Positions 5,991 through 20,600 of a DNA stretch of 64,000 nt are shown here, one piece after another; the stretch's first letter is position 1; the number at the start of each line of letters is the position of its first letter. The notes below the pieces were generated by a model. It was given only the letters and a program-made list of their open reading frames with translations, had not been told where the DNA came from and did no database searches. Source of the DNA: Naumannella cuiyingiana (lineage in GTDB: Bacteria > Actinomycetota > Actinomycetes > Propionibacteriales > Propionibacteriaceae). The position numbers and the translations under genes are program-made. Location of the stretch: contig NZ_JACBZS010000001.1 in NCBI RefSeq assembly GCF_013408305.1, positions 186,001-250,000 of the forward strand, written 5' to 3'.

Positions 5991-7094
5991 ATGAGTCAGT
6001 TGACCCTCGACCGTTACTCCCACCTCGACACCGTCGTCCGGGCCGTGCCCAGCGACCACGATCTGTCGGTGCTGGGCGAGCAGGTCGAGGCCCTGCATCC
6101 GGAGCTGACGGGGCTGGACCACGCGACCGCCTTCGACCGGATGTATGCGGCCGGGGAGAGCCTGCGCGAGGAGGTGCCGGAGCTCGCCGAGCTGCTGGCC
6201 GGCATCGCCAGCCACACGTCGTTCAAGGCGACCGTCCTGGTGCTGCCGCCGGCGGCGGAGAACGAGCTGCCGCCGACACCGGTCGACTACCGCAGCCCGG
6301 AGGACAACGAGTTGCTCAAGGTCGGCATCTACCGCGGCCTGGTGCTGGGGCTCGCCGGCTGGTACGGCTTCGGCTACACCTCCCAGCAGCCGGGGAACGT
6401 GATCAACGACGTGATCGCCATCCAGCGCCTGGCCGGGGTGCACGGCGTGAGCGCCAACGCCGCGGCCGAGCTCGGCCTGCACACCGAGGACGCCTCCTAC
6501 AACCTGGCCGATGCGGTCGCCGAGGACGGTTCGCGGCTGGACGCCAGCTACGACATCAGCCCCGACTGGCTGACCCTGCACTTCCTGCGCAATCCCGACC
6601 GGGTGCCGACCTTCGTCTCCGCACCGGACCCCGATGCGCTGTCCGACCGCGCCAACGAGCTGCTGCGCCAGCCCTACTACATCAACCTGACCAATCCCGG
6701 CCAGGGCGGTGCCGACAACAACGCCGACCTGCCGCAGGCGCTGCTGTATGAGTCCCCCGGCCGCTCGGAGACCTTCATCCGGGCGAACACGGCGAACCTG
6801 ATCGTGGTCAAGGACGCACATCCCGAGGCCCAGGCCGCGCTCGATGAGTTCCGCTCGGTGCTCGGCGACTTCGCCGTGGACCTGCCGACCGACCCGGGCT
6901 GCCTGGTGCTGATCGACAACCGGCGGGTGCTGCACGGGCGGCGCAACTACACCGAGGCCAAGTCCCCGCGCTTCGACGGCACCGACCGCTGGCAGCAGCG
7001 CGTCGTCTGCGCCGACGACGCCTCCCGGGTGAAGACCTACGAGGACGCCGCGCGGATCATCAACCCGCAGAACCTGCTCGCCCGGCTCAAGTGA
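5991..7094 (+). CDS. Clavaminate synthase/VioC-like Fe(II)/2OG oxygenase
   Basis: 367 residues. The sequence fits the clavaminate-synthase-like branch of TauD/TfdA oxygenases, which hydroxylate free or tethered amino acids (VioC on arginine, AsnO on asparagine). The iron ligands read as the HxE motif H164-T-E166 in LGLHTEDASYN and the distal H315 in RRVLHGRR. The 2OG-binding arginine is probably in WQQRVVCADD. This spacing is almost that of VioC. The ATG at 5991 has AAGGAA upstream. Its stop overlaps the GTG of the MurD-like ligase by 4 nt, so the two are translationally coupled. Substrate unknown; an amino acid is likely. Confidence 0.85.
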   Translation: MSQLTLDRYSHLDTVVRAVPSDHDLSVLGEQVEALHPELTGLDHATAFDRMYAAGESLREEVPELAELLAGIASHTSFKATVLVLPPAAENELPPTPVDYRSPEDNELLKVGIYRGLVLGLAGWYGFGYTSQQPGNVINDVIAIQRLAGVHGVSANAAAELGLHTEDASYNLADAVAEDGSRLDASYDISPDWLTLHFLRNPDRVPTFVSAPDPDALSDRANELLRQPYYINLTNPGQGGADNNADLPQALLYESPGRSETFIRANTANLIVVKDAHPEAQAALDEFRSVLGDFAVDLPTDPGCLVLIDNRRVLHGRRNYTEAKSPRFDGTDRWQQRVVCADDASRVKTYEDAARIINPQNLLARLK

Positions 7095-8449
7095 GCGAGC
7101 GCGCCGCACCGTTGCGCGTCGCCGTCGTCGGGTACGCCACCGACGGCCGCGCCACCGCGGCCTACCACGCCGCCCGCGGCGACCGGGTCGAGATCCGCGA
7201 CGCCAACCCCGCGACCGAGGTCGACCCCTCCTTCGACCGCCTGCTCGGGCCGGACCACCTGTCCGACCTGGACTCCTTCGACCTGGTGGTCCGCAGCTCC
7301 GGCGTCCACCCCGACAAGCTGTTGGCCGCCAATCCCGCGGCACTGGGGCTGGCGGACAAGATCACCACCAGCGTGAACGAGTTCGTCCGCCACAGCCCGA
7401 GCAGCCACCTGTACGGGGTGACCGGCACCAAGGGCAAGGGCACCACTGCCACCTTGATCGCCGAGTTGCTGCGCGCGGCGGGGCGCACGGTGCATCTCGG
7501 CGGCAATATCGGCATCGGCATGTTGTCCCTGCTGCCCCTGGTCGGCCCCGATGATCACTGCGTGCTGGAGTTGTCCAGCTTCCAGCTCTTCGACTTCACC
7601 GGCCGGGTGCCGACCGCGGTGGCGCTGAGCATCACTCCCGAGCACCTGAACTGGCATGCCGATCTTGCCGACTACCAGGGCGCCAAGGCGCGGCTGTTCG
7701 CCCACCAGGCGCCCGGGGACGTGACGGTGTTCAATGCGCGCTCGGCCACGGCCGCCGCGGCCGCCGCGCACAGCCCGGGCCGGCGGTTCGGTTTCGACGT
7801 GCCGCCGATCGGTGAGCCCCCGGCGGCGCGCGAGGCCGCATTCGTCGACGGCGAGCGACTCTGGCACGGCGACACGATGATCATGGACGTCGCGGAGATC
7901 GCGCTCCCGGGCCGGCACAACCTGGAGAATGTCTGCGCCGCGGTCTCGGCCACCTGGCCCGAGATCGCCGGCGACCTCGACGCGGCCCGCGCCGTGCTGC
8001 GTCGCTGGTCGGGCCTGAGCGAGCACCTCGAGCTGATCCGCGAGACCGGCGGCGTGCGGTGGTACAACGACACCTACGCCACGGCGCCCGATGCCGCGCT
8101 GGCGGCGATGCGCAGCTTCGACCGGCCCAAGGTGTTGATCATCGGCGGCATCGACAAGCAGGTGCCGCAGGCCGATTTCGTGGCCGCGATCGCGGCCGAG
8201 CAGTCGGTCCGCGGGGTGGTGCTGATCGACGACCTCGCCCCGCAACTGGCGGAGCTGTTCGCCGGGCGCGGATACGACCGGGCGGTTCTCGGCGGGGACT
8301 CGATGGACGCGATCGTGGCGACCGCCGCCCGACTGGCCGAGCCGGGCGATGTGGTGCTGCTCTCCCCCGGCGCCGCCGGTAACGGCGGGATGTTCGCCGA
8401 CAAGTGGGACCGCGGGCGCCGGTTCACCGCGGCGGTCGCCGCGCTCTGA
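7091..8449 (+). CDS. Divergent MurD-like amino-acid ligase
   Basis: 452 residues with the three-domain Mur ligase plan. Conserved features: P-loop TGTKGKGTT (residues 111-119), E160 in LELSSFQL, H187 region PEHLNWH, carbamylated lysine K199 (AKARLF), and K356 in IGGIDK. Departures from canonical MurD are NDTYAT at 326-331 instead of NDSKAT, and SPGAAGNGG at 425-433 instead of SPACASFD, both in the D-glutamate pocket. The P-loop resembles folylpolyglutamate synthase. It is coupled by a 4-nt overlap to an amino-acid oxygenase and is not in a cell-wall cluster. I infer a pathway-specific ATP-dependent amino-acid ligase; a second cell-wall MurD/MurD2 remains possible. Confidence 0.8.
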   Translation: MSERAAPLRVAVVGYATDGRATAAYHAARGDRVEIRDANPATEVDPSFDRLLGPDHLSDLDSFDLVVRSSGVHPDKLLAANPAALGLADKITTSVNEFVRHSPSSHLYGVTGTKGKGTTATLIAELLRAAGRTVHLGGNIGIGMLSLLPLVGPDDHCVLELSSFQLFDFTGRVPTAVALSITPEHLNWHADLADYQGAKARLFAHQAPGDVTVFNARSATAAAAAAHSPGRRFGFDVPPIGEPPAAREAAFVDGERLWHGDTMIMDVAEIALPGRHNLENVCAAVSATWPEIAGDLDAARAVLRRWSGLSEHLELIRETGGVRWYNDTYATAPDAALAAMRSFDRPKVLIIGGIDKQVPQADFVAAIAAEQSVRGVVLIDDLAPQLAELFAGRGYDRAVLGGDSMDAIVATAARLAEPGDVVLLSPGAAGNGGMFADKWDRGRRFTAAVAAL

Positions 8450-8464: not shown

Positions 8465-10348
8465 CTAGCTCGTGCCGACCGCCCGCTCCTGCTCGTCGGT
8501 GACCGGCGCGCTGAACTGGGCGTCGTAGAGCCGTCGGTAGGCTCCGTGCCGCTCCAGCAGCTCGGCGTGCGTACCCTGCTCGACGATCCGCCCCTTCTCC
8601 ATCACCAAGATCACATCGGCGTCGCGGATCGTGGACAACCGGTGGGCGATCACGAAGCTGGTCCGGTCCGCCCGCAGCCTGGCCATCGCCTGCTGCACCA
8701 GCACCTCGGTGCGGGTGTCGACCGAGCTGGTCGCCTCGTCCAGGATCAGCAACGCCGGGTCGGCGAGGAAGGCCCGGGCGATCGTGATCAACTGCTTCTC
8801 GCCGGCGCTGACGTTGTCGGCCTCCTCGTCGATCACCGTGTCGTAGCCGTCGGGCAGCGCGTGCACGAAGCGGTCGACATAGGCGGCGCGGGCGGCCGCC
8901 AGCAACTCCTCCTCGGTCGCGTCGAGGCGACCGTAGGCGATGTTGTCGCGGATCGTGCCGCCGAACAGCCAACTGTCCTGCAACACCATCCCGGTGACCG
9001 CACGCAGTTCCTTGCGGGGTACGCCGGCGAGGTCGACGCCGTCCAGGGCGATCACCCCACCCTGCACGTCGTAGAAGCGCATCAGCAGGTTGACCAGGGT
9101 CGTCTTGCCGGCCCCGGTCGGCCCCACGATGGCCACGGTCTGGCCCGGCTCGGCGACCAGGTCGAGGCCGGTGATCAACTCGCTGTCCGGATCGTAGGAG
9201 AAGGACACCTCGTCGAAGACCACCCGACCCCGGACCGGCCGCGCCAGCGCCCCGGAGGGCTCCGCCGACTGTTCGGCCGCATCCAGCACCTCGAAGACCC
9301 GCTCGGCCGAGGCGACACCGGACTGGAGCAGGTTGGCCATCGCGGCGATCTGGGACAGCGGCTGGGTGAACTGGCGGGAGTACTGGATGAATGCCTGCAC
9401 CTCGCCGATGGTCATCTGGCCGCCGGCAACCCGGAGGCCACCGACCACGGCGATCACCACATAGTTGAGGTTCCCGATCAGCATCGTCGCCGGCATGATC
9501 AACCCGGACAGGAACTGCGAGGCGAACCCGGCGGCGAACAGCCGCTCGTTGCGCTGCGCGAACTCGGCCTCCACCTCGCGCTGCCGGCCGAAGACCTTGA
9601 CCAGTTGATGGCCCGTGTAGGCCTCCTCGACCTGGGCGTTCAGGGCGCCGGTGGCGGCCCAGTTCTCGATGAATCGGCGCTGCGCGCGCGAGCCGATCAC
9701 CGCCGAGATGCCCAGCGTGACCGGGACGGTGATCAGGGCGATCACGGCAAGGATCGGCGAGGTGAGGAACATCATGATGATCACGCCGATCACCATCAGC
9801 AGCGCGTTGACGAGCTGGGCCAGGGTCTGCTGCAACACCTGGGCGACGTTGTCGATGTCATTGGTGACGCGGCTCAGCAACTCCCCGCGTGGGGTCTTGT
9901 CGAAATAGCTCAGCGGGAGGCGGTTGAGCTTGTCCTCGACCTGGCCGCGCATCCGGCGTACCGACCGCTGGACGGCACCGTTCAGCAACCAGCCCTGCGC
10001 GAAGCCCAGCAACACCGCCACCAGGTAGCACCCGGCGGCCAGCATCAGCACCATGCCCAGTTCGCCGAAGTCGATCCCGGCCGCCCGGTCGACCACGGCA
10101 CCGTTCCAGACGACATCGGTCGCCCAGCCGAGGATCCGGGGGCCGATCACGTTCAGCAGCACCGCGCCGAGGGCGAAGACCAGCGCGCAGCCGAGCACCG
10201 CCCGCTCGGGCCGCAGATGGCCGAGCAGCCGGCGCACCGACGGGCCGAAGTTCAGTGCCTTTTCGGCGGGGGCCTGGGTGGCGAGGGGGCCGCGGCCGTG
10301 GCCGCGCATGGGCGCCGGACGGGCGTTGGTGCTCGTACGCTCGCTCAT
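8465..10348 (-). CDS. ABC exporter half, catalytically complete ATPase
   Basis: 627 residues: an N-terminal six-helix exporter domain (about residues 50-340) fused to an ATPase domain. Walker A is GPTGAGKTT, the signature motif is the unusual NVSAGEKQL, and Walker B is LLILDEATSSVD with the catalytic glutamate present. The ATG at 10348 overlaps the upstream half-transporter's stop by 4 nt. The pair should form a heterodimeric exporter in the inner membrane. Regulated by the adjacent TetR; drug or lipid export is the usual role, but the substrate is unknown. Confidence 0.93.
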   Translation of the reverse strand: MSERTSTNARPAPMRGHGRGPLATQAPAEKALNFGPSVRRLLGHLRPERAVLGCALVFALGAVLLNVIGPRILGWATDVVWNGAVVDRAAGIDFGELGMVLMLAAGCYLVAVLLGFAQGWLLNGAVQRSVRRMRGQVEDKLNRLPLSYFDKTPRGELLSRVTNDIDNVAQVLQQTLAQLVNALLMVIGVIIMMFLTSPILAVIALITVPVTLGISAVIGSRAQRRFIENWAATGALNAQVEEAYTGHQLVKVFGRQREVEAEFAQRNERLFAAGFASQFLSGLIMPATMLIGNLNYVVIAVVGGLRVAGGQMTIGEVQAFIQYSRQFTQPLSQIAAMANLLQSGVASAERVFEVLDAAEQSAEPSGALARPVRGRVVFDEVSFSYDPDSELITGLDLVAEPGQTVAIVGPTGAGKTTLVNLLMRFYDVQGGVIALDGVDLAGVPRKELRAVTGMVLQDSWLFGGTIRDNIAYGRLDATEEELLAAARAAYVDRFVHALPDGYDTVIDEEADNVSAGEKQLITIARAFLADPALLILDEATSSVDTRTEVLVQQAMARLRADRTSFVIAHRLSTIRDADVILVMEKGRIVEQGTHAELLERHGAYRRLYDAQFSAPVTDEQERAVGTS

Positions 10349-12084
10349 GCCGCGGCCTCCTCGGCGCTCAGCTGGGAGGCGACGATCTCGACGTAGGTCT
10401 CGCAGGTCTCCAGCAGCTCCTGGTGGGTGCCGATCCCGACCACCTCGCCGTGTTCGAGTACCACGATCTGATCGGCATCGCGCACGGTGGCGATGCGCTG
10501 ACCGACCATGATCACCGCTGCGTCGCGGGTCTCGGCGCGCAGCGCGCCGCGCAGCCGGGCGTCGGTCGCCACATCCAGCGCGGAGAACGAGTCGTCGAAG
10601 ATCAGGATCTTGGCGCGGGCCACCAGCGCACGGGCGATCGACAGACGCTGCCGCTGACCGCCGGAGACGTTGGTGCCGCCCTGGCTGATCGGTGCGTCCA
10701 GCCCTTCGGGCAGGTCGGCGACGAAGTCGGCGGCCTGGGCCACCTCGAGTGCCCGCCACAGCTCGTCGTCGGTGGCGTCGGGATTGCCGTAGCGCAGATT
10801 GGAGGCGACGGTGCCGGAGAACAGGAACGCCTTCTGCGGCACCAGGGCAAGACTGCGCCACAGCGCGTCGGCGGCGATCTCGCGGACCGGTACGCCACCG
10901 ACGGACACGGTGCCGGCGGTCGCGTCGAAGAACCGCGGAACGAGCGAGATCAGGGTGGTCTTCCCGGCACCGGTCGAGCCGATGATCGCCGTGGTCTGCC
11001 CCGGGTGGGCCGAGAAGCTGATGTCGCGCAGCACCGGCGCGTCGGCACCGGGATAGGTGAACGACACCCGGTCGAAGTCGACCCGACCCGGCTCGGGCAG
11101 CGCGGTCACCCCGTCCGGGTCGAAGTCCACGCTGGATCCGGTGGCCAACACCTGTCCGATGCGGTCGGCAGAGACCGCCGCACGCGGCGCCATCACGAAC
11201 AAGAAGGTCGCCATCATCACCGACATCAGGATCTGGATCAGGTAGGCGATGTAGGCCGTCAGTTGCCCGACCTGGAGCTGGCCCTCGACAATCCGTGCCG
11301 CGCCGAACCAGACGACGGCGACGCTGGACAGGTTCGCCACTCCCATCACGATCGGGAACATCGCGGCCATCCAGCGGCCGGCGGACGTGGCCACCTCCGC
11401 CAGCGCGACGCTCGCCCGGTCGAATCGCGCGGCCTCGTAGTCCTCGCGGACGAATGCGCGGACCACCCGGATCCCCATGATCTGCTCGCGCAGCACCCGG
11501 TTCACGCCGTCGATGTTCTCCTGCATCCGCCGGAACAGCGGTCCCATCCGGGAGACGATCACCGCGATCAGGCCGACCAGGACGGCCACCGCGACCACGA
11601 TCAACCAGGACAGCCCGATGTCCTCGCGCACGGCGAGCACCACGCCGCCGATCATGGTGATCGGCGCGGCGACCAGCAGCGTCGCGGCCATCACCACGAG
11701 CATCTGCACCTGCTGCACGTCGTTGGTGTTGCGGGTGATCAGCGTGGGCGCACCGAAGGAGTTGAGCTCGCGCGCGGAGAACGACAGCACGCGATCGAAG
11801 ATCGCGCCTCGCACGTCGCGGCCGAATGCCATCGCCGCCCGGGCGCCGAAGTAGACGGCCGCGGCCTGACAGCCGAGTTGCAGCAGGCTGGCACCGAGCA
11901 TGATCGCGCCGGTACGCCAGATCAGCCCGATGTCGCCGACCGCGACCCCGTCGTCGATGATCCGCGCGTTCAGTGTGGGCAGATAGAGCCCACTGATCGA
12001 GGCCACCAGTTGCAGGCAGACCACGACCACGATCCAGCCGACGTAGGGGCGCAGGAAGCGCCGGAGCAGTCGAATCAGGTTCAT
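10345..12084 (-). CDS. ABC exporter half with a degenerate catalytic site
   Basis: 579 residues: exporter membrane domain (about 15-300) plus ATPase domain. Walker A is GSTGAGKTT and the signature motif is NVSGGQRQR. Walker B reads ILIFDDSFSALD, with Asp where the catalytic Glu normally sits, as in the TM287-type half of heterodimeric exporters. Its ATG overlaps the tetR stop by 1 nt and its stop overlaps the next half-transporter by 4 nt, so all three genes form an operon. Confidence 0.93.
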   Translation of the reverse strand: MNLIRLLRRFLRPYVGWIVVVVCLQLVASISGLYLPTLNARIIDDGVAVGDIGLIWRTGAIMLGASLLQLGCQAAAVYFGARAAMAFGRDVRGAIFDRVLSFSARELNSFGAPTLITRNTNDVQQVQMLVVMAATLLVAAPITMIGGVVLAVREDIGLSWLIVVAVAVLVGLIAVIVSRMGPLFRRMQENIDGVNRVLREQIMGIRVVRAFVREDYEAARFDRASVALAEVATSAGRWMAAMFPIVMGVANLSSVAVVWFGAARIVEGQLQVGQLTAYIAYLIQILMSVMMATFLFVMAPRAAVSADRIGQVLATGSSVDFDPDGVTALPEPGRVDFDRVSFTYPGADAPVLRDISFSAHPGQTTAIIGSTGAGKTTLISLVPRFFDATAGTVSVGGVPVREIAADALWRSLALVPQKAFLFSGTVASNLRYGNPDATDDELWRALEVAQAADFVADLPEGLDAPISQGGTNVSGGQRQRLSIARALVARAKILIFDDSFSALDVATDARLRGALRAETRDAAVIMVGQRIATVRDADQIVVLEHGEVVGIGTHQELLETCETYVEIVASQLSAEEAAA

Positions 12085-12680
12085 CAGCTTCTCCCCCCGG
12101 CGAGCGCCCCGTGCAACACCAGGTCGACGACCGTGGCCTGGTCGCGCAGGGCCGACTCGCGCAGCATCGGGTGCGCCGCCTGCATCGCCAACGCGTTGAT
12201 CAACAACATCAGCGACCTGATGTCGACGGCGAGCCGCCGGCGGTCGGCGTCGAGCACCTGACCGGCGGCCTCGACGACCAGCCGCTGATAGTCCGCGTGC
12301 CGCCGGCGGTGCTGGTCGGCGGCCTCCCCCTTGCCGGCGTTCGGGGGGCCCAGTGCGAAGACCAGCGCCAGCACTTCCTCGTGCCGATGCAGCAGGATCT
12401 GCCAGATGGCGCCGATGCGCTCCTCCAGCGAGCGGGTCGGGTCGATCGCGAGGATGCGTTCGCCCAGCACGCTGGCATCGGCGAGGCGAGCCAGCGTGGC
12501 CTCGATGATCTCCTCCTTGGAGGCGAACGCCCGAAAGATCGTGCCCTCGGCGATTCCGGCGGCGTCGGCGATCTGTCGCGTCGTGACCTGGCGCCCGTGC
12601 TCCCTCAGCAGGGGCAACGCGGCATCCACGATCTGATCGCGCCGCTCGGTCTGCGGCAGGGCGTCGGCTCGGGGTGACAC
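12084..12680 (-). CDS. TetR regulator of the ABC exporter operon
   Basis: About 198 residues. The N-terminal helix-turn-helix reads VTTRQIADAAGIAEGTIFRAF (in two parts: VTTRQIADAAG and IAEGTIFRAF), with a variable ligand-binding C-terminus. I prefer the GTG at 12680 because a TAAGCT -10 box ends exactly 7 nt upstream. A GTG at 12710 would add ten residues and put the start codon inside the palindromic operator. The gene is first in the operon with the two exporter genes and probably represses it. Confidence 0.88.
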   Translation of the reverse strand: MSPRADALPQTERRDQIVDAALPLLREHGRQVTTRQIADAAGIAEGTIFRAFASKEEIIEATLARLADASVLGERILAIDPTRSLEERIGAIWQILLHRHEEVLALVFALGPPNAGKGEAADQHRRRHADYQRLVVEAAGQVLDADRRRLAVDIRSLMLLINALAMQAAHPMLRESALRDQATVVDLVLHGALAGGRS

Positions 12681-12687
12681 GACGGGA

Positions 12688-12712
12688 AGCTTATCGGAGT
12701 GAGCACTCACTC
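12688..12712. promoter_or_regulatory. tetR promoter and palindromic operator
   Basis: Two 7-bp arms, GAGTGAG (12697-12703) and CTCACTC (12706-12712), are separated by CA and form a perfect inverted repeat. On the minus strand TAAGCT (12688-12693) follows and is placed as the -10 of tetR. Binding here would block tetR transcription and could affect the divergent LuxR-type gene. Confidence 0.6.
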
Positions 12713-12785
12713 ACAATCGCATTTCCCGGACCCGGCACGGCCGCGGCCGGAATCTCTTGGCGCGCTGTCGGTGCCGCCCAGCACA

Positions 12786-15659
12786 ATGGCGCAGGTGACC
12801 TACAGCAGCCCACTCGTGGGGCGGGGCGAGGAACTGACCGCTCTGGCCGACACGGTGCTCGGCCGGGCAGGCGGCGCGGCGCTGCTCGGCGGCGATGCCG
12901 GGGTCGGCAAGTCACGCCTGCTCGACGCTCTGGCCGGGCTCGCCGCGGATCGCGGGGTCCGGGTGCTGGTCGGGCACTGCCTCGAGCTCGGCGACGCGGC
13001 ACCGCCCTATCTGCCGTTCGCCGAGTTGGTCGCGGGCCTGGGGCCCGGGCTGGCCGATGAGTTCCCCGCGCTGGCGCCGTTGTTGCCGGCCGGGTCCGCC
13101 GGCGGGTGGTCGGAGCGCGCCGCGCTGCTGCTCGGCCTGCACGGGGCGATCGAGCGGGCAGCCGCCACGGGCCCGCTGCTGCTGATCGTCGAGGACGTGC
13201 ACTGGGCCGACTCCTCGACCCGAGATGCGCTCGGCTACCTGTTGATCCGTGGATTCACCGGGCCGGTCGGCCTGGTGATCAGTTGGCGCACCGACGACAT
13301 CGATCGTCGCCATCCGCTGCGCCGCTCGCTCGCCGAATGGACCCGCCTGCCCCGCGTCGGACGGGTGGTGCTGGGCCCGCTCGGCGATGAGGAGATGCGC
13401 GCGATCCTGGGCGATCTGGGCGACCCGGATCCGGCGCCGGAGCTGCTCGAGCTCGCCGGCGGCAATCCCTTCTATGCCGAGGAACTGCACGCCGCCCGCA
13501 GCCTGGGCGCGACCCGGATCAGCGATCAGCTCACCGAGTTGTTGGCGGTACGCCTGGAGCGCCTCACCCCGCAGGCCCGGACGGTCGCTCGGGTCGCGGC
13601 GCTGGCCGGACACCGGGTCGGTGACGACCTGCTCGCCGCGGTGACCGGGCTGCCGCGTCCCGAGCTCGAGGCGGCGCTGCGCGAGTTGCTGGACCAACAC
13701 GTCCTGCAGACCACCGACACCCCGCCCGGCTATCGGGTCCGGCATGCGCTGCTGGCGGCCACCATCCGCGAGGAATTGTTGCCCGGGGAGCGCTCGCGAC
13801 TGCACGGCGCCCTCGCCACGGCGCTCGGCGAGCGCCCGGATTCCGCGCCCGCCGAGATCGCCGAGCACGCCCGCCAGGCCGGCGACGCCCGGCTCGCCTT
13901 CCCCGCCCTGATCGCCGCCGGGCGCCGCGCCGAGGAGTCCTCAGCCCCCGACCGAGCCGCCCGGCACTATGCCGACGCCCTCGAACTGGCCGGTCGCGAC
14001 CCCGCTCTGCTCGAGTTGACCGATGCGCCCGATGTCGACGCGCTGGTGATCTCCGCCTCGCGGGCCTGGCGGGCCGCGGGCGACGAGTTCCGCGCCGCCG
14101 AGTTGGTCGAGGATCGGCTCGCCCGCCTCGGTGAGGCGCCGATCGGCGCCTCCGACGCGGAGCTGCAGACGCGCGCCGACCTGCTGATGGAGCTCGCGCT
14201 GGCGCACGACGTGCTCGATGTCGCGGGGCAGCCGCTGGAGCGGCTGCTGGCGATGATCGGACGCCTCGACCGCCCCAGCCCGCAGCGGGCCCGACTGCGC
14301 CACATGGCGGCCCGGATGGCGGTCCGGATCGACGACTTCGAGCTGGCCCGCAGCCAGGGCGAGGCGAGCCTGGCGGAGGCCCGGGAGCTGGCCGTGCCCG
14401 GACTGGCCGCCGACATCGAGACCACGCTCGCCCGGCTCGACGACTTCGCCGGCCATTCCGAGGCCTCGGCCGAGACCCTGCGCTCCCTGATCGCGCGCAG
14501 CGAGCGCGCGGGCCGGCATGCAGCGGAGCTGCGCGCCCGCTACCAGTTGGCCAGGGTGCTCGCCCGGCTCGACGATCACCCCGACACGCTGACGGCGCTG
14601 CTGGCGCTCGTCCGCCGCGGCCGCGAGCTGGGCGTGGCCATCGCAAATCCGCATGCCCGCGACGGCCGGGCACTGGCGGGCCACTTCGCCATCCTCACCG
14701 GGCGGTGGCAGACCGCGGACGAGCTGCTCGCCGCCGACGGTGCGCCCGGGGTCGAGGCGGCCGCCATCCGCGCGCTGCGCCTGGTGCTCGACGCCCAGCG
14801 CGGGCGTACCGATGCGGCACTGGCCGCGCTCACCCTGGTCCGTCCGGCCTGGACCCGCGACATGTTCGTCGCCGTGCACAGCGCGGTCGCCACGATCGAC
14901 ATGCACGGCGCGCGGGGCGATGTCGCGGCCATGCTGGCGGTGTATGCCGACCTGGCCGCGGTCGACGGCGCGATCTGGTCCGACCGGGCCGATTTCTGGG
15001 TCCGCGCCGCGACCACGACGCTGCTCCGGATCGCCGATCTGGCGTTGGCCGATCCGGCGCAGGCGGCCCGGCACCGCGAGGCGGTGGCCCGGCTCGGTTC
15101 GGATGTCGACCGGGTACGCACCGCGTACGCCGCGGGCCGGGTGCCCGGCTCCGGCACCACGCCGGGTGTCGAGCTGCGCGCCTGGGCCGCGCGGGCCGAC
15201 GCGGTGCGGCCCCTGCTGGCGGCGATCGCCGCCGGCGATCGCGTCCCGCCGCCCGAGTCGGTCGAGGCCGCACGCGCCTCGCTCGCCGAGTTCGTCGCCG
15301 GCGACATCCCGTTCGAGGAGGCCCGCGCCCGGATCCTGCTCGCTGACCTGCTCGAACGCTCCGGCGATCGCGCCGGCGCGCGGGACGAGCGGCGCGCGGC
15401 GCTGACGCTGGCGGAGCAGCTCGGCGCCGGCGAACTGGTCGCGCGCCTGCGACCCGCCGGGACCGTCGGCCCGCTGACCGCGCGCGAGACCGAGGTGCTG
15501 CGGTTGGTCGCCGCCGGCTCGACCAACGGTCAGATCGCCGAACGGCTGCACATCAGCACCAAGACCGCCAGCGTGCACGTGTCCAACATCCTGGCCAAGC
15601 TCGGCGCGGCCAATCGTTCGGAGGCGGCCGCCACGGCGACCCGGCAGGGATTGCTCTGA
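12786..15659 (+). CDS. Large LuxR-family regulator with ATPase domain
   Basis: About 957 residues. The N-terminal AAA/STAND-type ATPase has Walker A GGDAGVGKSR and a Walker B-like LLLIVEDVHWADSS. A long helical middle region follows. The C-terminal LuxR helix-turn-helix reads LTARETEVLRLVAAGSTN then GQIAERLHISTKTASVHVSN. Such LAL regulators switch on biosynthetic or sugar-uptake operons on binding a ligand. The ATG at 12786 starts 6 residues before the conserved PLVGRGEEL; a GTG at 12699 would overlap the tetR operator. Target genes cannot be assigned; the downstream aminotransferase and the divergent exporter are the nearest. Confidence 0.88.
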   Translation: MAQVTYSSPLVGRGEELTALADTVLGRAGGAALLGGDAGVGKSRLLDALAGLAADRGVRVLVGHCLELGDAAPPYLPFAELVAGLGPGLADEFPALAPLLPAGSAGGWSERAALLLGLHGAIERAAATGPLLLIVEDVHWADSSTRDALGYLLIRGFTGPVGLVISWRTDDIDRRHPLRRSLAEWTRLPRVGRVVLGPLGDEEMRAILGDLGDPDPAPELLELAGGNPFYAEELHAARSLGATRISDQLTELLAVRLERLTPQARTVARVAALAGHRVGDDLLAAVTGLPRPELEAALRELLDQHVLQTTDTPPGYRVRHALLAATIREELLPGERSRLHGALATALGERPDSAPAEIAEHARQAGDARLAFPALIAAGRRAEESSAPDRAARHYADALELAGRDPALLELTDAPDVDALVISASRAWRAAGDEFRAAELVEDRLARLGEAPIGASDAELQTRADLLMELALAHDVLDVAGQPLERLLAMIGRLDRPSPQRARLRHMAARMAVRIDDFELARSQGEASLAEARELAVPGLAADIETTLARLDDFAGHSEASAETLRSLIARSERAGRHAAELRARYQLARVLARLDDHPDTLTALLALVRRGRELGVAIANPHARDGRALAGHFAILTGRWQTADELLAADGAPGVEAAAIRALRLVLDAQRGRTDAALAALTLVRPAWTRDMFVAVHSAVATIDMHGARGDVAAMLAVYADLAAVDGAIWSDRADFWVRAATTTLLRIADLALADPAQAARHREAVARLGSDVDRVRTAYAAGRVPGSGTTPGVELRAWAARADAVRPLLAAIAAGDRVPPPESVEAARASLAEFVAGDIPFEEARARILLADLLERSGDRAGARDERRAALTLAEQLGAGELVARLRPAGTVGPLTARETEVLRLVAAGSTNGQIAERLHISTKTASVHVSNILAKLGAANRSEAAATATRQGLL

Positions 15660-15704: not shown

Positions 15705-15783
15705 GGAAGCATCCCGGGGCGCCGGATCGGCTGCCCCCGCGCCCGCCCGATGCGGTGCCGCGGTGGTGTGTCACGATGCGGCC

Positions 15784-17139
15784 ATGAGCGCTGTCACCGA
15801 GCCCACCACTGCCGCGGGGACGGGTTCCCTGCCCACCGATCCGGCCGAGATCGCCCGCCTCGATCGCGCGCACGTCTTCCACTCCTGGTCCGCCCAGGAC
15901 AAGGTCGACCCGATGGTCGTCGTGGGCGGCGAGGGCAACTACGTGATCGCCGGCGACGGCCGCCGTTACCTCGACTTCTCCGGGCAACTCGTCTTCACCA
16001 ACATCGGCCATCAACACCCCAGGGTCACCGAGGCGATCGCCGCCCAGGCGGCCCAGCTCTGCACCACCGCGCCCGCGCACGCCACGGCGGCGAAGTCGGA
16101 GGCCGCACGACTGATCGCCGAGCTCACCCCCGGCGACCTCGATTCGATCTTCTTCACCAACGGCGGCGCGGAGGCCACCGAGCACGCGATCCGGATGGCG
16201 CGGCAGTTCACCGGCCGGAACAAGATCTTGTCCCGATACCGCTCCTACCACGGCGCGACCCAGACGGCGATCAACGTCACCGGCGACGAGCGACGCTGGC
16301 CGTCCGACACCGCGACCGCGGGCACCGTGCACTTCTTCGGCCCCTTCCTGTATCGCTCGGTCTTCCACGCCGAGACGCCCGAGCAGGAGCGCGACCGGGC
16401 CCTGGAGCACCTGGAACAGACGATCCGGATGGAGGGACCCGACACCATCGCCGCGGTGATGTTGGAGACCATCCCCGGGACCGCCGGAATCATGCCGCCG
16501 CCGGAGGGCTATCTCGCCGGGGTACGCCGGATCTGCGACCGGTACGGGGTGTTGCTGATCCTGGACGAGGTGATGGCGGGCTTCGGCCGCACCGGCCGTT
16601 GGCTGGCGCTCGACCACTACGACGTGACCCCGGATCTGATGACCTTCGCCAAGGGCGTCACCGCCGGCTACGTGCCGCTGGGCGGCGTGGCGATCTCGCG
16701 CGCGATTCGTGATCACTTCGGGCAGCGTCCCTATCCGGGCGGGCTGACCTACTCGGGACATCCGCTGGCCTGCGCCGCGGCGGTCGCGACGATCACCACC
16801 ATGCGCGCAGAGGGCATGATCGACAACGCCGACCGGATCGGCTCGCAGGTGCTCGGTCCCGGGCTGGCCGAGATCGCGCAGCGCCACCGCAGCGTCGGCG
16901 AGGCGCGTGGGATCGGCGTGTTCTGGGCGCTGGATCTGGTGGCCGATCAGGAGACGCGCGAACCGCTCGGCGCCGATCGGGTCGCGGCGACGGTCGCCGC
17001 CTGCAAGGCGGCCGGGTTGTTGCCCTTCACCGCCGGGAATCGGATCCACGTCGTGCCGTCGTGCACCATCAGCGACGACGAGGCCCGCCAGGGCCTGGCC
17101 ATTCTCGACGAGGCTCTCGCGGTCGCCGACGGCCACTGA
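15784..17139 (+). CDS. Class III PLP-dependent aminotransferase
   Basis: 451 residues. The protein carries the class III pattern: FTNGGAEATEHAIRMAR for phosphate binding, YRSYHGAT, LLILDEVMAGFGRTG with the PLP-contacting Asp, and the Schiff-base lysine K290 in FAKGVTAGYVPLGG. The length and the YSGHPLACAAA segment resemble taurine-pyruvate or omega-amino-acid aminotransferases, but the substrate cannot be fixed. The ATG at 15784 follows no clear ribosome site. It stands alone between the LuxR-type gene and the convergent gentisate transporter. Confidence 0.88.
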   Translation: MSAVTEPTTAAGTGSLPTDPAEIARLDRAHVFHSWSAQDKVDPMVVVGGEGNYVIAGDGRRYLDFSGQLVFTNIGHQHPRVTEAIAAQAAQLCTTAPAHATAAKSEAARLIAELTPGDLDSIFFTNGGAEATEHAIRMARQFTGRNKILSRYRSYHGATQTAINVTGDERRWPSDTATAGTVHFFGPFLYRSVFHAETPEQERDRALEHLEQTIRMEGPDTIAAVMLETIPGTAGIMPPPEGYLAGVRRICDRYGVLLILDEVMAGFGRTGRWLALDHYDVTPDLMTFAKGVTAGYVPLGGVAISRAIRDHFGQRPYPGGLTYSGHPLACAAAVATITTMRAEGMIDNADRIGSQVLGPGLAEIAQRHRSVGEARGIGVFWALDLVADQETREPLGADRVAATVAACKAAGLLPFTAGNRIHVVPSCTISDDEARQGLAILDEALAVADGH

Positions 17140-17226: not shown

Positions 17227-18516
17227 TCAGGCGATCGCTGCCCGGCGGGCGCGGACGAAGCCGAGCACGCCGAGCAGGGTGCCGGCGGCGAGCAGCGCTC
17301 CACCGCCGAACACGAGCAGGCTGACCAGGGGGCTGAAGGCGCTGGCCAGCAGCAATCCCGAGGTCTGCGGGGCGAGCACCGCGCCGATCCGCCCGACGCC
17401 CAGGGCCCAGCCGAGCCCGGTACCGCGCAGGTGGGCCGGCAGCGAGGAGGTGATCGCGGCGATGATCAGGCACTGCGTGCCGTGGGTACCGATGCCGGCC
17501 AGCACCAGCGCCGCGTAGACCGCCGGGGTGGGCAGATCGGCGACGAAGATCGCGATCAGCGCGGCGCCGGCGATCACCGCCGCGATGATCGCCGACGGCA
17601 CCGGACCGAAGCGGTCGCCGGCCCAGGCAGTGATCAGCGACCCGGCAACGGCGCCGAGATTGAGGGCGAGCGTGAACGACAGGGCCGAGCCGAGATCGAA
17701 ACCGGAGTCGCCCATGATCTTGGGCAACTGCGTGCCGAGGCCGTACCACGCGAACAAGGTGGCGAAGGAGGCCGCCGCGAAGAGCAGACTGGCCCCCAGG
17801 TAGGGCGCGCGCAGCAGGGTCCCGAAGCCCGCCTTCTCCGCGCCGGGCGCGCGAGCCTGCAGGGTCTCCGGGATCACCCGGGCACCGATCGGCACCAGGA
17901 CGACCGCCGCGATCAACGCGATCCCGAACATCGGCCGCCAACCGGCCGCGGGGATCACCGCCATTCCCGAGGTGGCGGCGATCACGCCGCCGATCGGCAC
18001 GCCGGACATCATCAAGGTGGCGACCATCGCGCGCCAGCGCGGACCGACCAGTTCGGCGGCCAGTGCGTTCGCGGTCGGCACGAGGCCACCGAGACCGATG
18101 CCGGCGATCAGCCGGAAGGCTCCGAACATCACCGGCCCGGTGGCGAGCGCACAGGCCGCCGTGAACACGGAGAAGATCAACGCACACGCGAGAATGGCGC
18201 GCTTGCGGCCAAGGCTGTCGGCGATCCGGCCGGCGGCGAGCGCGCCGATCATCATGCCGATGAAGACCATCGACCCGATGGTGCCGGCGGAGGCGGCGTT
18301 CAGCCCCCATCCGGTCGCGTTGATCAACTGGTTCTGGACCGACCCGTAGACGATCAGGTCGTAGCCGTCGCAGACCACCAGCAACCAGCACACGGCCACG
18401 GCGGCGAGCGCCTGCCGGGAACCGGGCACGACCGCGGGCGAACCGGTGGACGGCGAATCGGTGGCCGGCGGGGCGGCGGGTGTGGCGGCGGTGCGCTCAT
18501 CATCGAGTCGACTCAT
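17227..18516 (-). CDS. genK: Aromatic acid:H+ symporter, probable gentisate transporter
   Basis: 429 residues with about 12 transmembrane helices. The AAHS-family signature DGYDLIVYG is in helix 1 and the MFS loop motif GRIADSLGRKRAI lies between helices 2 and 3. It sits divergently 48 bp from an IclR regulator and beside gentisate ring-cleavage genes, the same context as GenK of Corynebacterium glutamicum. Uptake of gentisate or a 3-hydroxybenzoate-type precursor is the inferred role. The palindrome at 18558 probably controls it together with the regulator. Confidence 0.85.
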   Translation of the reverse strand: MSRLDDERTAATPAAPPATDSPSTGSPAVVPGSRQALAAVAVCWLLVVCDGYDLIVYGSVQNQLINATGWGLNAASAGTIGSMVFIGMMIGALAAGRIADSLGRKRAILACALIFSVFTAACALATGPVMFGAFRLIAGIGLGGLVPTANALAAELVGPRWRAMVATLMMSGVPIGGVIAATSGMAVIPAAGWRPMFGIALIAAVVLVPIGARVIPETLQARAPGAEKAGFGTLLRAPYLGASLLFAAASFATLFAWYGLGTQLPKIMGDSGFDLGSALSFTLALNLGAVAGSLITAWAGDRFGPVPSAIIAAVIAGAALIAIFVADLPTPAVYAALVLAGIGTHGTQCLIIAAITSSLPAHLRGTGLGWALGVGRIGAVLAPQTSGLLLASAFSPLVSLLVFGGGALLAAGTLLGVLGFVRARRAAIA

Positions 18517-18552
18517 GGCGCACAGAGTTCACCACGCGCGGCTGCCGACGGC

Positions 18553-18572
18553 TAACATTCTGATATGCAGAA
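18553..18572. promoter_or_regulatory. Leaderless genR promoter with IclR-type operator
   Basis: TAACAT (18553-18558) lies 6 nt before the regulator's ATG, so the transcript should begin at or near the start codon. The palindrome TTCTG-N5-CAGAA (18558-18572) overlaps the end of this box and spans the ATG. The same palindrome occurs upstream of the gentisate dioxygenase gene. Confidence 0.6.
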
Positions 18573-19365
18573 ACACCCGGTCCGCACCAGGCCGACCTAC
18601 CTGCCCGAGTCGGTCGACCACGCCCTGGTACTGATCGAACTGCTCCGCGACACCGGGAGCCTCCGGGTCTCCGAGGCCGCCGTCGAGCTCGGCGTCGCCC
18701 CCTCGACCGCCCACCGGCTGCTCTCGGCGCTGGTCTATCGCGGTTTCGCCACCCAGGACGAGTCCCGGCGCTATCTGCCCGGGCCGGCGGTCGGGCTCGG
18801 CCCGGCGAAGCAGCGCTGGACCAGGGAACTGCGCTCGCTGGTCAGCCCCTACCTCGAGGCGCTGTCCTACCGGCTCGACGAGACGACCAACCTGCTGGTG
18901 CGGATCGGCACGAAGGTCCGCTTCCTGAGTACGGCCGAGGGCAGCCAGGCCCTGCGGGTCGGCGACCGCCAGGGCTTTGCCCTGCCGGCCCATCGCGCGT
19001 CGGCGGGCCGCGCCATCCTCGCCGAACTGCCCTGGCCGACCGTGCGCCACCTGTTCACGGGCGCGGCCGCCGAGCTGGCCGGCGATCGGCTCGACGAGGA
19101 CGGGCTGCAGCACCTGCGTACCCAGCTCGACGACGCCCGCGAGCGCCGCTACGCGATCAACGTCGACGGAACCGAGGAGGGCGTCAGCGCGATCGGCATC
19201 GCGCTGCACGATTCCCGCGGTACCGCCATCGCGGGGCTCACCGTCACCGTGCCGACGCGGCGTTTCGAGGCGGTGCACACGCCCCGCACCCTGCGCGCGG
19301 TGATGGAGGTGGGCCGCTCCATCGACGGGGAGCTGCGCCAGGCGGGCCTGACCGCCGACGACTGA
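18565..19365 (+). CDS. genR: IclR-family regulator of gentisate catabolism
   Basis: 266 residues. The N-terminal winged helix-turn-helix (SVDHALVLIELL, VSEAAVELGVAPSTAHRLL) is followed by the IclR ligand-binding domain (ETTNLLVRIG, AHRASAGRAILAEL, YAINVDGTEEGVSAIGIAL). It lies between the transporter (divergent) and the ring-cleavage genes, matching GenR of C. glutamicum. No other in-frame start is available, so the ATG at 18565 is used although an operator covers it. Autoregulation is likely. Confidence 0.88.
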   Translation: MQKHPVRTRPTYLPESVDHALVLIELLRDTGSLRVSEAAVELGVAPSTAHRLLSALVYRGFATQDESRRYLPGPAVGLGPAKQRWTRELRSLVSPYLEALSYRLDETTNLLVRIGTKVRFLSTAEGSQALRVGDRQGFALPAHRASAGRAILAELPWPTVRHLFTGAAAELAGDRLDEDGLQHLRTQLDDARERRYAINVDGTEEGVSAIGIALHDSRGTAIAGLTVTVPTRRFEAVHTPRTLRAVMEVGRSIDGELRQAGLTADD

Positions 19366-19394
19366 CGGCTGCTCTGTTCAGACGGAGGCATGAG

Positions 19395-19409
19395 TTCTGT
19401 GGTGCAGAA
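19395..19409. promoter_or_regulatory. Second IclR-type operator
   Basis: TTCTG-TGGTG-CAGAA is the same 5+5+5 palindrome as at 18558. It lies 72 nt upstream of the gentisate dioxygenase start, in the only promoter-sized gap of the catabolic operon. Confidence 0.6.
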
Positions 19410-19481
19410 TCCTCCCCGGAGACCTCGGATCCGCGCCTAGTCTCGCGACTCGCCCCGTCCGGACTCCCCAGGAGGTCATCG

Positions 19482-20600
19482 GTGACCCCGACCAGCAATT
19501 CCACCGCCCCCGATCGCCCCGCGAACGTGATGACTCCCCCGACGGCCGCCGAGGCCGCGGAGCTGGACGCGTTGTATGCCCGGATGGGCGCGGAGAACAT
19601 GATTCCGCTGTGGACCGAGATCGGCGACCTGATGCCGCAGACTCCGCGCCCGGCCGCGGTGCCGCACGTCTGGCGCTGGTCGACGCTGCTGCCGATCGCC
19701 GAGGACGCGGGCCGGCTGGTGCCGGTCGGTCGCGGCGGCGAGCGCCGGGCGATCGCCCTGGCCAATCCCGGCCTGGGCGGCCGGCCGTACGCGACGCCGA
19801 CCCTGTGGGCGGCCATCCAGTACCTCGGCGGTCACGAGGTCGCGCCCGAACACCGCCACTCGCAGAACGCCTTCCGGTTCGTCGTCGAGGGTGAGGGCGT
19901 GTGGACCGTGGTGAACGGCGACCCGGTCGCCATGCGCCGCGGTGACTTCCTGCTCACCCCGGGCTGGAACTTCCACGGTCACCACAACGAGACCGATGCG
20001 CCGATGGCCTGGATCGACGGCCTCGACATCCCGTTCGTGCACTACACCGACACCACGTTCTTCGAGTTCGGCATCGACCGGGTCACCGACGAGGCCACTC
20101 CCCCGGTGTCTCGCTCGGAGCGGCTGTGGGCGCACCCGGGCCTGCGGCCGCTGTCCGGGCTCGACGACACGGTGAACTCGCCGATCGCGGCGTACCGCTG
20201 GGAGCACACCGACGCCGCCCTGGCCGAGCAGCTCGCCCTGGAGGACGAGGGGCAGCCCGCCACGGTCGAGTTGGGGCATGCCGCGGTGCGCTTCGTGAAC
20301 CCGACCACCGGCGGCGACGTGATGCCGACCATCCGTGCCGAGTTCCATCGACTGCGCCCCGGCGCATCGACCGCGACCACCCGCGAGGCCGCCTCCTCGG
20401 TTTACCAGGTCTTCGACGGCGAGGGCACGGTCAGCCTCGGCGGCACCGAGCATCGCGTCGGCACCGGCGACATGTTCGTGGTTCCCTCCTGGGTGCCGTT
20501 CACCGCGCAGACCGATGCCGGCCTCGACCTGTTCCGCTTCGGCGACCAGCCGATCAGCGAGCGACTCGGGCTGGCGCGTACCCATGTCCAGCGGCCGTGA
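19482..20600 (+). CDS. nagI: Gentisate 1,2-dioxygenase
   Basis: 372 residues, two cupin domains. It opens the ring of gentisate with O2 and Fe(II) to give maleylpyruvate. Family features: IPLWTEIGDLMPQTP, then the first cupin with the metal site PEHRHSQNAFRFVVEGEG, and a second cupin near residues 270-360. The GTG at 19482 is preceded by AGGAGG with a 6-nt gap, which fixes the start. First gene of the operon with the hydrolase and isomerase; likely controlled by the IclR protein through the palindrome upstream. Salicylate dioxygenase activity is a less likely alternative. Confidence 0.9.
   Translation: MTPTSNSTAPDRPANVMTPPTAAEAAELDALYARMGAENMIPLWTEIGDLMPQTPRPAAVPHVWRWSTLLPIAEDAGRLVPVGRGGERRAIALANPGLGGRPYATPTLWAAIQYLGGHEVAPEHRHSQNAFRFVVEGEGVWTVVNGDPVAMRRGDFLLTPGWNFHGHHNETDAPMAWIDGLDIPFVHYTDTTFFEFGIDRVTDEATPPVSRSERLWAHPGLRPLSGLDDTVNSPIAAYRWEHTDAALAEQLALEDEGQPATVELGHAAVRFVNPTTGGDVMPTIRAEFHRLRPGASTATTREAASSVYQVFDGEGTVSLGGTEHRVGTGDMFVVPSWVPFTAQTDAGLDLFRFGDQPISERLGLARTHVQRP

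Follow-up and report, generated by a model that had tools for sequence, protein, structure and literature searches.

Two adjacent genes, encoding a predicted amino-acid oxygenase and a MurD-type ligase, may together alter residue 2 of the stem peptide of peptidoglycan: a glutamate beta-hydroxylase would supply a MurD variant, and the latter would make a peptidoglycan precursor containing (3-hydroxy)glutamate at this position. Judged from the sequences of the two proteins, we give this reading just short of an even chance. It is favored by the occurrence of the pair in three lineages and two phyla, the ancestry of the ligase in Saccharibacteria, the kept acceptor and catalytic residues and the changed residues around the glutamate side chain. 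Both genes lie in the window, i.e., the whole 64,000-nucleotide stretch of DNA that was analyzed (G000:C1:186001-250000), in a genome of 3.53 Mb with a G+C content of about 72%. Their positions and those of the features discussed below are listed in Table 1.

Table 1. Positions of genes and sequence features in the window
Feature	Position	Strand	Remarks
Oxygenase ORF, 367 aa	5991..7094	+	ATG at 5991, TGA stop at 7094
Iron ligands H164-T-E166 (VioC H168/E170)	6480..6488	+	codons
N266-T-A-N269, replacing VioC guanidinium clamps D268/D270	6786..6797	+	codons
Third iron ligand H315 (VioC H316)	6933..6935	+	codon
R337 (VioC R334, substrate alpha-carboxylate)	6999..7001	+	codon
GTGA overlap	7091..7094	+	ligase GTG start over oxygenase TGA stop
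MurD-type ligase ORF, 452 aa	7091..8449	+	GTG at 7091, TGA stop at 8449
P-loop GTKGKGTT (G112-T119)	7424..7447	+	Saccharibacteria type
H312, replacing E. coli MurD Arg302	8024..8026	+	codon; changed only in three Saccharibacteria-type oxygenase-linked ligases
Remodelled glutamate-side-chain loop SPGAAGNGGMFADK	8363..8404	+	S415 to G430, F422 to K438, plus an insertion
Two ABC half-transporters (8465-10255, 10345-12084)	8465..12084	-	convergent to the pair; kept beside the pair in the sister species
TetR regulator	12084..12710	-	no counterpart called in the sister-species block
Class-III aminotransferase (NF004718)	15763..17139	+	74% identical counterpart beside the ABC pair in the sister species

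Conservation of the pair within the genus

A preliminary description of this DNA had reported the two open reading frames and their 4-nt overlap, and both were found where it had placed them. In the sister species (G001), the sole other genome of the genus found, the oxygenase and the ligase are 80 and 70% identical to their counterparts and follow one another in the same order. A check for separation of the pair in close relatives thus showed that the adjacency is kept but the overlap is not, since 182 bp lie between the two genes in the sister species. This gap (L017:9529-9710) holds a strong GC-rich hairpin, which suggests separate oxygenase and ligase transcripts in that species. A sigma-70-like promoter or terminator was looked for in the window between 5400 and 8700, and none was found. 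PADLOC gave no defence-system match, and a role of the pair in defence was rejected on this basis.

The oxygenase resembles amino-acid beta-hydroxylases

The product of the first gene is a predicted Fe(II)/2-oxoglutarate amino-acid oxygenase of the clavaminate-synthase-like (VioC/GntD) superfamily. It matches Pfam TauD (43 bits) and the NCBIfam models GntD (97 bits, equivalog cut-off 345), VioC (87 bits, cut-off 419) and ClavSyn_CS1 (59 bits) without reaching any equivalog cut-off, and its nearest solved structures are VioC-type amino-acid hydroxylases. An AlphaFold2 model, built from a four-row alignment, reached a pLDDT of 48. Using an alignment to VioC (2wbq numbering), we found that the oxygenase keeps the 2-His-1-carboxylate triad H164/E166/H315, the 2-oxoglutarate arginine R333 and the substrate residues Q133 and R337, equivalent to H168/E170/H316, R330, Q137 and R334 of VioC. 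In VioC, residues of this set serve iron, 2-oxoglutarate, the free alpha-amino group (Q137) and the alpha-carboxylate (R334) (PMC10884159; PMC6224419). The iron, 2-oxoglutarate and alpha-amino-acid residues are invariant in all four oxygenases of the subfamily. The model matches and the kept residues agree with the VioC-like amino-acid oxygenase proposed in the preliminary description.

The side-chain pocket differs. VioC binds the guanidinium group through D268 and D270 (PMC10884159); the corresponding positions are Asn/Asn, but Asn/Arg in the oxygenase of the patescibacterium G716, and the adjoining loop reads N-x-T-N in 4/4 members. A DXXD sub-pocket is the mark of enzymes that act on cationic side chains; groups that lack it may take hydrophobic or acidic ones (PMC6224419). 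The loss of the DXXD-type aspartates, together with the Mur ligase partner, points to glutamate or a close analogue as the substrate. We propose that the oxygenase may be a glutamate beta-hydroxylase, with glutamate as the most likely substrate by homology and gene neighbors. The enzyme shares the iron triad, the 2-oxoglutarate arginine and the alpha-amino and alpha-carboxylate residues with the beta-hydroxylases VioC, GntD, CmnC, and OrfP, but it is distant from them in sequence and far under their equivalog cut-offs, lacks the acidic clamp for cationic side chains, and is partnered by a Mur ligase instead of an NRPS or guanidine pathway.

The oxygenase subfamily is rare and was found only beside MurD-type ligases

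The oxygenase subfamily is very rare. Across about 1,700 genome searches in overlapping samples, close members were found in four genomes only: the window genome, the sister species (L017:8425-9528, 80% identical), a Candidatus Saccharimonas sp. (L049:8880-9989, 45%) and G716 (L091:9264-10322, 38%). Samples of 57 relatives and of 395 genomes from the class, 392 from the order, 380 from the patescibacterial phylum and 393 from the Saccharimonas class (samples overlap) contained no further member; the class-wide sample yielded no close relative. A search of genome contigs returned no related loci with the oxygenase as query and gave matches with the ligase, and the plasmids searched with the oxygenase yielded only distant GntD/VioC-like matches of 25-28% identity. 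More distant matches in Actinomycetes, with E values from 1e-10 to 1e-26, lacked a Mur ligase in loci of 3-4 kb and were set aside as other clavaminate-synthase-like enzymes.

Both superfamilies are common in general, and an ordinary murD paralogue could have come to lie beside an unrelated oxygenase by coincidence. We find this scarcely credible, as the four genomes with the oxygenase carry a MurD-type ligase beside it in every case, in two gene orders and two phyla. The adjacency in three lineages upholds the earlier view that oxygenase and ligase form a real functional pair.

The ligase is a MurD paralogue with an altered amino-acid pocket

The ligase scores 276 bits against TIGR01087 (murD; cut-off 212 bits) over residues 9-450 and also matches Mur_ligase_M and Mur_ligase_C. 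Its AlphaFold2 model (pLDDT 87.9) aligns end to end with MurD at Z 40.6, compared with 28.6 for MurC. The canonical murD of the genome is flanked by mraY and ftsW in the dcw cluster (G000:C1:2861404), where the preliminary description had advised looking for it, and encodes a protein 33% identical to the window ligase; murI is at C1:803852. The presence of both genes elsewhere identifies the window ligase as a paralogue outside the dcw cluster, in line with the earlier description.

To compare active sites, 27 ligases were aligned with E. coli MurD (L101; literature numbering) as the reference. The window ligase keeps D35, S71, and N138, which we take to be acceptor-side residues, and K115, E157, H183, K198, N271, and D317, which we take to serve ATP/Mg binding and the carbamoylated lysine; T321 and K348 are kept as well. 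The residues for the acceptor UDP-MurNAc-Ala, for ATP/Mg and for the glutamate alpha-carboxylate are thus retained, with R302 replaced by His. In contrast, the contacts of S415 and F422 to the D-Glu side chain are not kept: these positions are Gly and Lys, and the loop holds one inserted residue. In complexes with glutamate-mimicking MurD inhibitors, S415 and F422 bind one carboxylate and K348 and T321 the other (PMC3527612). Since the acceptor residues are kept while S415 and F422 are changed, the amino-acid pocket was re-tooled with the acceptor side preserved, and the loss of the two contacts means that we do not class the enzyme as an ordinary D-Glu ligase.

The substitutions R302H, S415G, and F422K occur in the ligases of the window and the sister species, and the Saccharimonas ligase (L049) has His, Ala, and Asn. 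All three positions are changed together only in these three Saccharibacteria-type oxygenase-linked ligases, whereas R302 and S415 are unchanged in the other 24 of the 27. Compared with canonical MurD (TIGR01087; Saccharibacteria and E. coli), the window ligase therefore has the same full-length three-domain fold (Z about 40) and the same catalytic and UDP-MurNAc residues, but differs in R302, S415, and F422, in the insertion in the glutamate loop, in its link to an oxygenase and in being redundant with the dcw murD of its own genome. At the positions of the MurD2 signature (Glu 182/Arg 348, E. coli numbering) the window ligase has E/K, like most Saccharibacteria MurDs, so that its amino acid may be of D- or L-configuration. 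We propose that the ligase may act as a UDP-MurNAc-L-Ala:(3-hydroxy)glutamate ligase.

The changed S415/F422 loop could also mean that the amino acid is not glutamate. On the same wall route, the hydroxylated residue at position 2 could derive from, e.g., Gln, Asp, or Asn; the loss of the two contacts with the gain of Asn and Lys in the ligase loop fits this, and so does the Asn-rich side-chain pocket of the oxygenase, which suits amides as well as acids. Nevertheless, we consider such a residue quite unlikely, because the window ligase retains T321 and K348 and because the G716 oxygenase accompanies a canonical-pocket MurD2 and MurL, a glutamate pathway. A gamma-linked stem peptide moreover requires a gamma-carboxylate.

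The ligase groups with Saccharibacteria MurDs

A scan with one genome per species found the relatives of the ligase among Candidatus Saccharibacteria MurDs, with up to 44-45% full-length identity; these are closer to the window ligase than the MurD of its own genome. In a maximum-likelihood tree, the ligases of the window, the sister species, and Ca. Saccharimonas form one clade (100/99) nested in the Saccharibacteria MurDs, a group supported at 95/83. On this phylogeny, the window ligase descends from the Saccharibacteria MurD lineage.

In Ca. Saccharimonas sp. CALRAM010000001.1 (L049), a Saccharibacterium and thus one of the tiny Patescibacteria, the oxygenase gene lies upstream of the ligase gene with a gap of 5 bp, in the same order as in the window. 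No MurD other than the pair-linked ligase was found in this genome, whereas other contigs carry MurE, MurF-like ligases, Ddl, and murI; the status of the ligase as the only MurD is provisional, as the MAG (about 0.6 Mb, no clear murC recovered) may be incomplete. In six of the seven Saccharibacteria checked, murI and murD are immediate neighbors (e.g., G442:C2:3240-5233), the exception being the oxygenase-bearing G441. A murI neighbor fits what is expected of a wall enzyme.

Both the tree of the ligases and the scarcity of the oxygenase imply movement of genes between Saccharibacteria and Actinomycetota, groups with known episymbiont-host contact, the episymbionts living on actinobacteria. The G+C content of the pair matches each host (70-72% in the window; 39-40% in Saccharimonas, where L049 as a whole has 38.6%), which indicates that the transfer was not recent. 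For the ligase, its nesting among Saccharibacteria MurDs favors transfer towards the actinobacterium.

Two further types of MurD paralogue were seen. Another actinobacterial family carries a Saccharibacteria-like paralogue (L018:9379-11118, G035) with 43-45% identity to the window ligase, a HIT-like protein following it, no oxygenase, and R302 and S415 intact. Another MurD-like paralogue, 35-37% identical to the window ligase and with canonical S415 and R302, recurs in one family of the same taxonomic order (L020:4704-7039, L021:8011-10377, L024:9011-11264), adjoining a HAD-type phosphatase and near a MerR-like regulator.

A second patescibacterium links the oxygenase to MurL

In G716, a murL homologue, a MurD-type ligase gene and the oxygenase gene follow one another on one strand, with the ligase and oxygenase in the order opposite to that in the window and Saccharimonas. 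This difference from L049 suggests a functional reason for keeping or forming the association. The MurL protein matches NF041275 over its full length with 341 bits, under the equivalog cut-off of 700 bits. The G716 ligase has canonical R302 and S415, so the oxygenase is not always accompanied by the pocket change. It also has E182/R348, the pair reported to set the preference for L-Glu in MurD2 (PMC8788868), which is consistent with the adjacent murL. The murL gene and MurD2-type ligase at L091:9264-13075 (G716:C7) lie outside the MurD2/MurL taxa named in that review.

The MurD2/MurL pathway of Xanthomonas and Micromonospora also uses a MurD-like ligase to add the second stem residue, and the oxygenase directly after murL and a ligase with the E/R pair brings G716 close to it; no oxygenase is mentioned in the review text consulted (PMC8788868). 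The window genome differs from this pathway in its E/K ligase and in MurL, which was absent from the genomes of the window organism and the sister species (G716 MurL as single query, E 0.001) and from the Saccharibacteria checked. The possibility that a MurL encoded elsewhere in the window genome completes the pair was accordingly discarded.

The position of the oxygenase as the last gene in G716, after murL and the ligase, would suit a reverse order of reactions in which the ligase builds UDP-MurNAc-Ala-Glu and the oxygenase then hydroxylates glutamate on the nucleotide precursor. We regard this as very unlikely, given that the residues with which VioC grips the free alpha-amino group (Q137) and the alpha-carboxylate (R334) are invariant (PMC6224419; PMC10884159); the changed ligase pocket would also need another cause.

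Neighboring genes in the actinobacteria and a possible secreted product

A block of oxygenase, ligase, two ABC genes and aminotransferase is common to both species of the genus, whereas the called genes outside it differ. The class-III aminotransferase may belong to the module. A large AAA/LuxR-type regulator lies between the TetR gene and the aminotransferase (window 12699-15659), with no called counterpart in the sister-species block. Beside the block, the window carries an aromatic-acid MFS transporter, an IclR regulator and gentisate 1,2-dioxygenase (17227-20600), an apparent gentisate catabolic cluster.

The exporter and aminotransferase neighbors in both actinobacteria fit a secreted product, which speaks against the wall reading. 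The actinobacterial pair could turn a hydroxylated amino acid into a small secreted dipeptide or amide that the ABC pair exports, with a ligase that has left UDP-MurNAc and an aminotransferase that perhaps supplies a building block. The persistence of the block in both species despite differing flanks, the changed side-chain pocket and the existence of murD and murI elsewhere in the genome are all in keeping with this. However, the UDP-MurNAc residues are kept, the N-terminal domain of the window ligase shows about the conservation seen among comparably distant Saccharibacteria MurDs, and the pairs in Patescibacteria are accompanied by peptidoglycan genes and not by the ABC and aminotransferase genes, so that we consider a secreted product somewhat unlikely. 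The preliminary description had suggested a route to a dipeptide, amide, or metallophore. The kept acceptor residues, the Saccharibacteria MurD kin and the murL/MurD2-like context in G716 make such a route less likely and point to a peptidoglycan precursor; the actinobacterial copy could still have been diverted to a secreted product, as the exporters and aminotransferase suggest.

Proposed function

In the wall reading that we prefer, the oxygenase would use Fe(II), 2-oxoglutarate, and O2 to hydroxylate a free amino acid whose side chain is acidic or an amide; glutamate is the most likely substrate and C3 the most likely site, the latter by analogy with most members of the oxygenase family. 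The MurD-type ligase would then, with ATP, join the hydroxylated amino acid to UDP-MurNAc-L-Ala, yielding UDP-MurNAc-L-Ala-(3-hydroxy)Glu. In G716, ligation of L-hydroxy-Glu would precede its epimerization by MurL. In the window organism, the pair would add a route, perhaps a conditional one, to that of the canonical MurD, whose presence means that hydroxylation would be partial or conditional; with murD and murI of its own, the organism would not need the hydroxylated precursor for growth. The identity of the substrate as glutamate, hydroxylation at C3, the stereochemistry, the reaction order and incorporation of the product into the wall are inferred.

The proposed product is the same residue as the threo-3-hydroxyglutamate that occurs in the type-B peptidoglycan of Microbacteriaceae, e.g., Herbiconiux (PMC10011130). 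A search of the open-access literature found no gene or enzyme for peptidoglycan hydroxyglutamate. As a distinctly tentative proposal, the glutamate beta-hydroxylase and the re-tooled MurD may constitute an O2-dependent precursor-hydroxylation module common to a Saccharibacterium and actinobacteria and carried across phyla together. Its genes would be the first for 3-hydroxyglutamate at stem position 2, and the module would possibly shape wall recognition between epibiont and host.

The pair provides concrete, testable candidate genes for wall hydroxyglutamate, so far known chemically in some actinobacterial walls. If the proposal is true, the nearly universal second residue of peptidoglycan would be editable before polymerization by an O2-dependent enzyme, with the specificity of MurD re-tooled to match and the module exchanged between Saccharibacteria and Actinomycetota.
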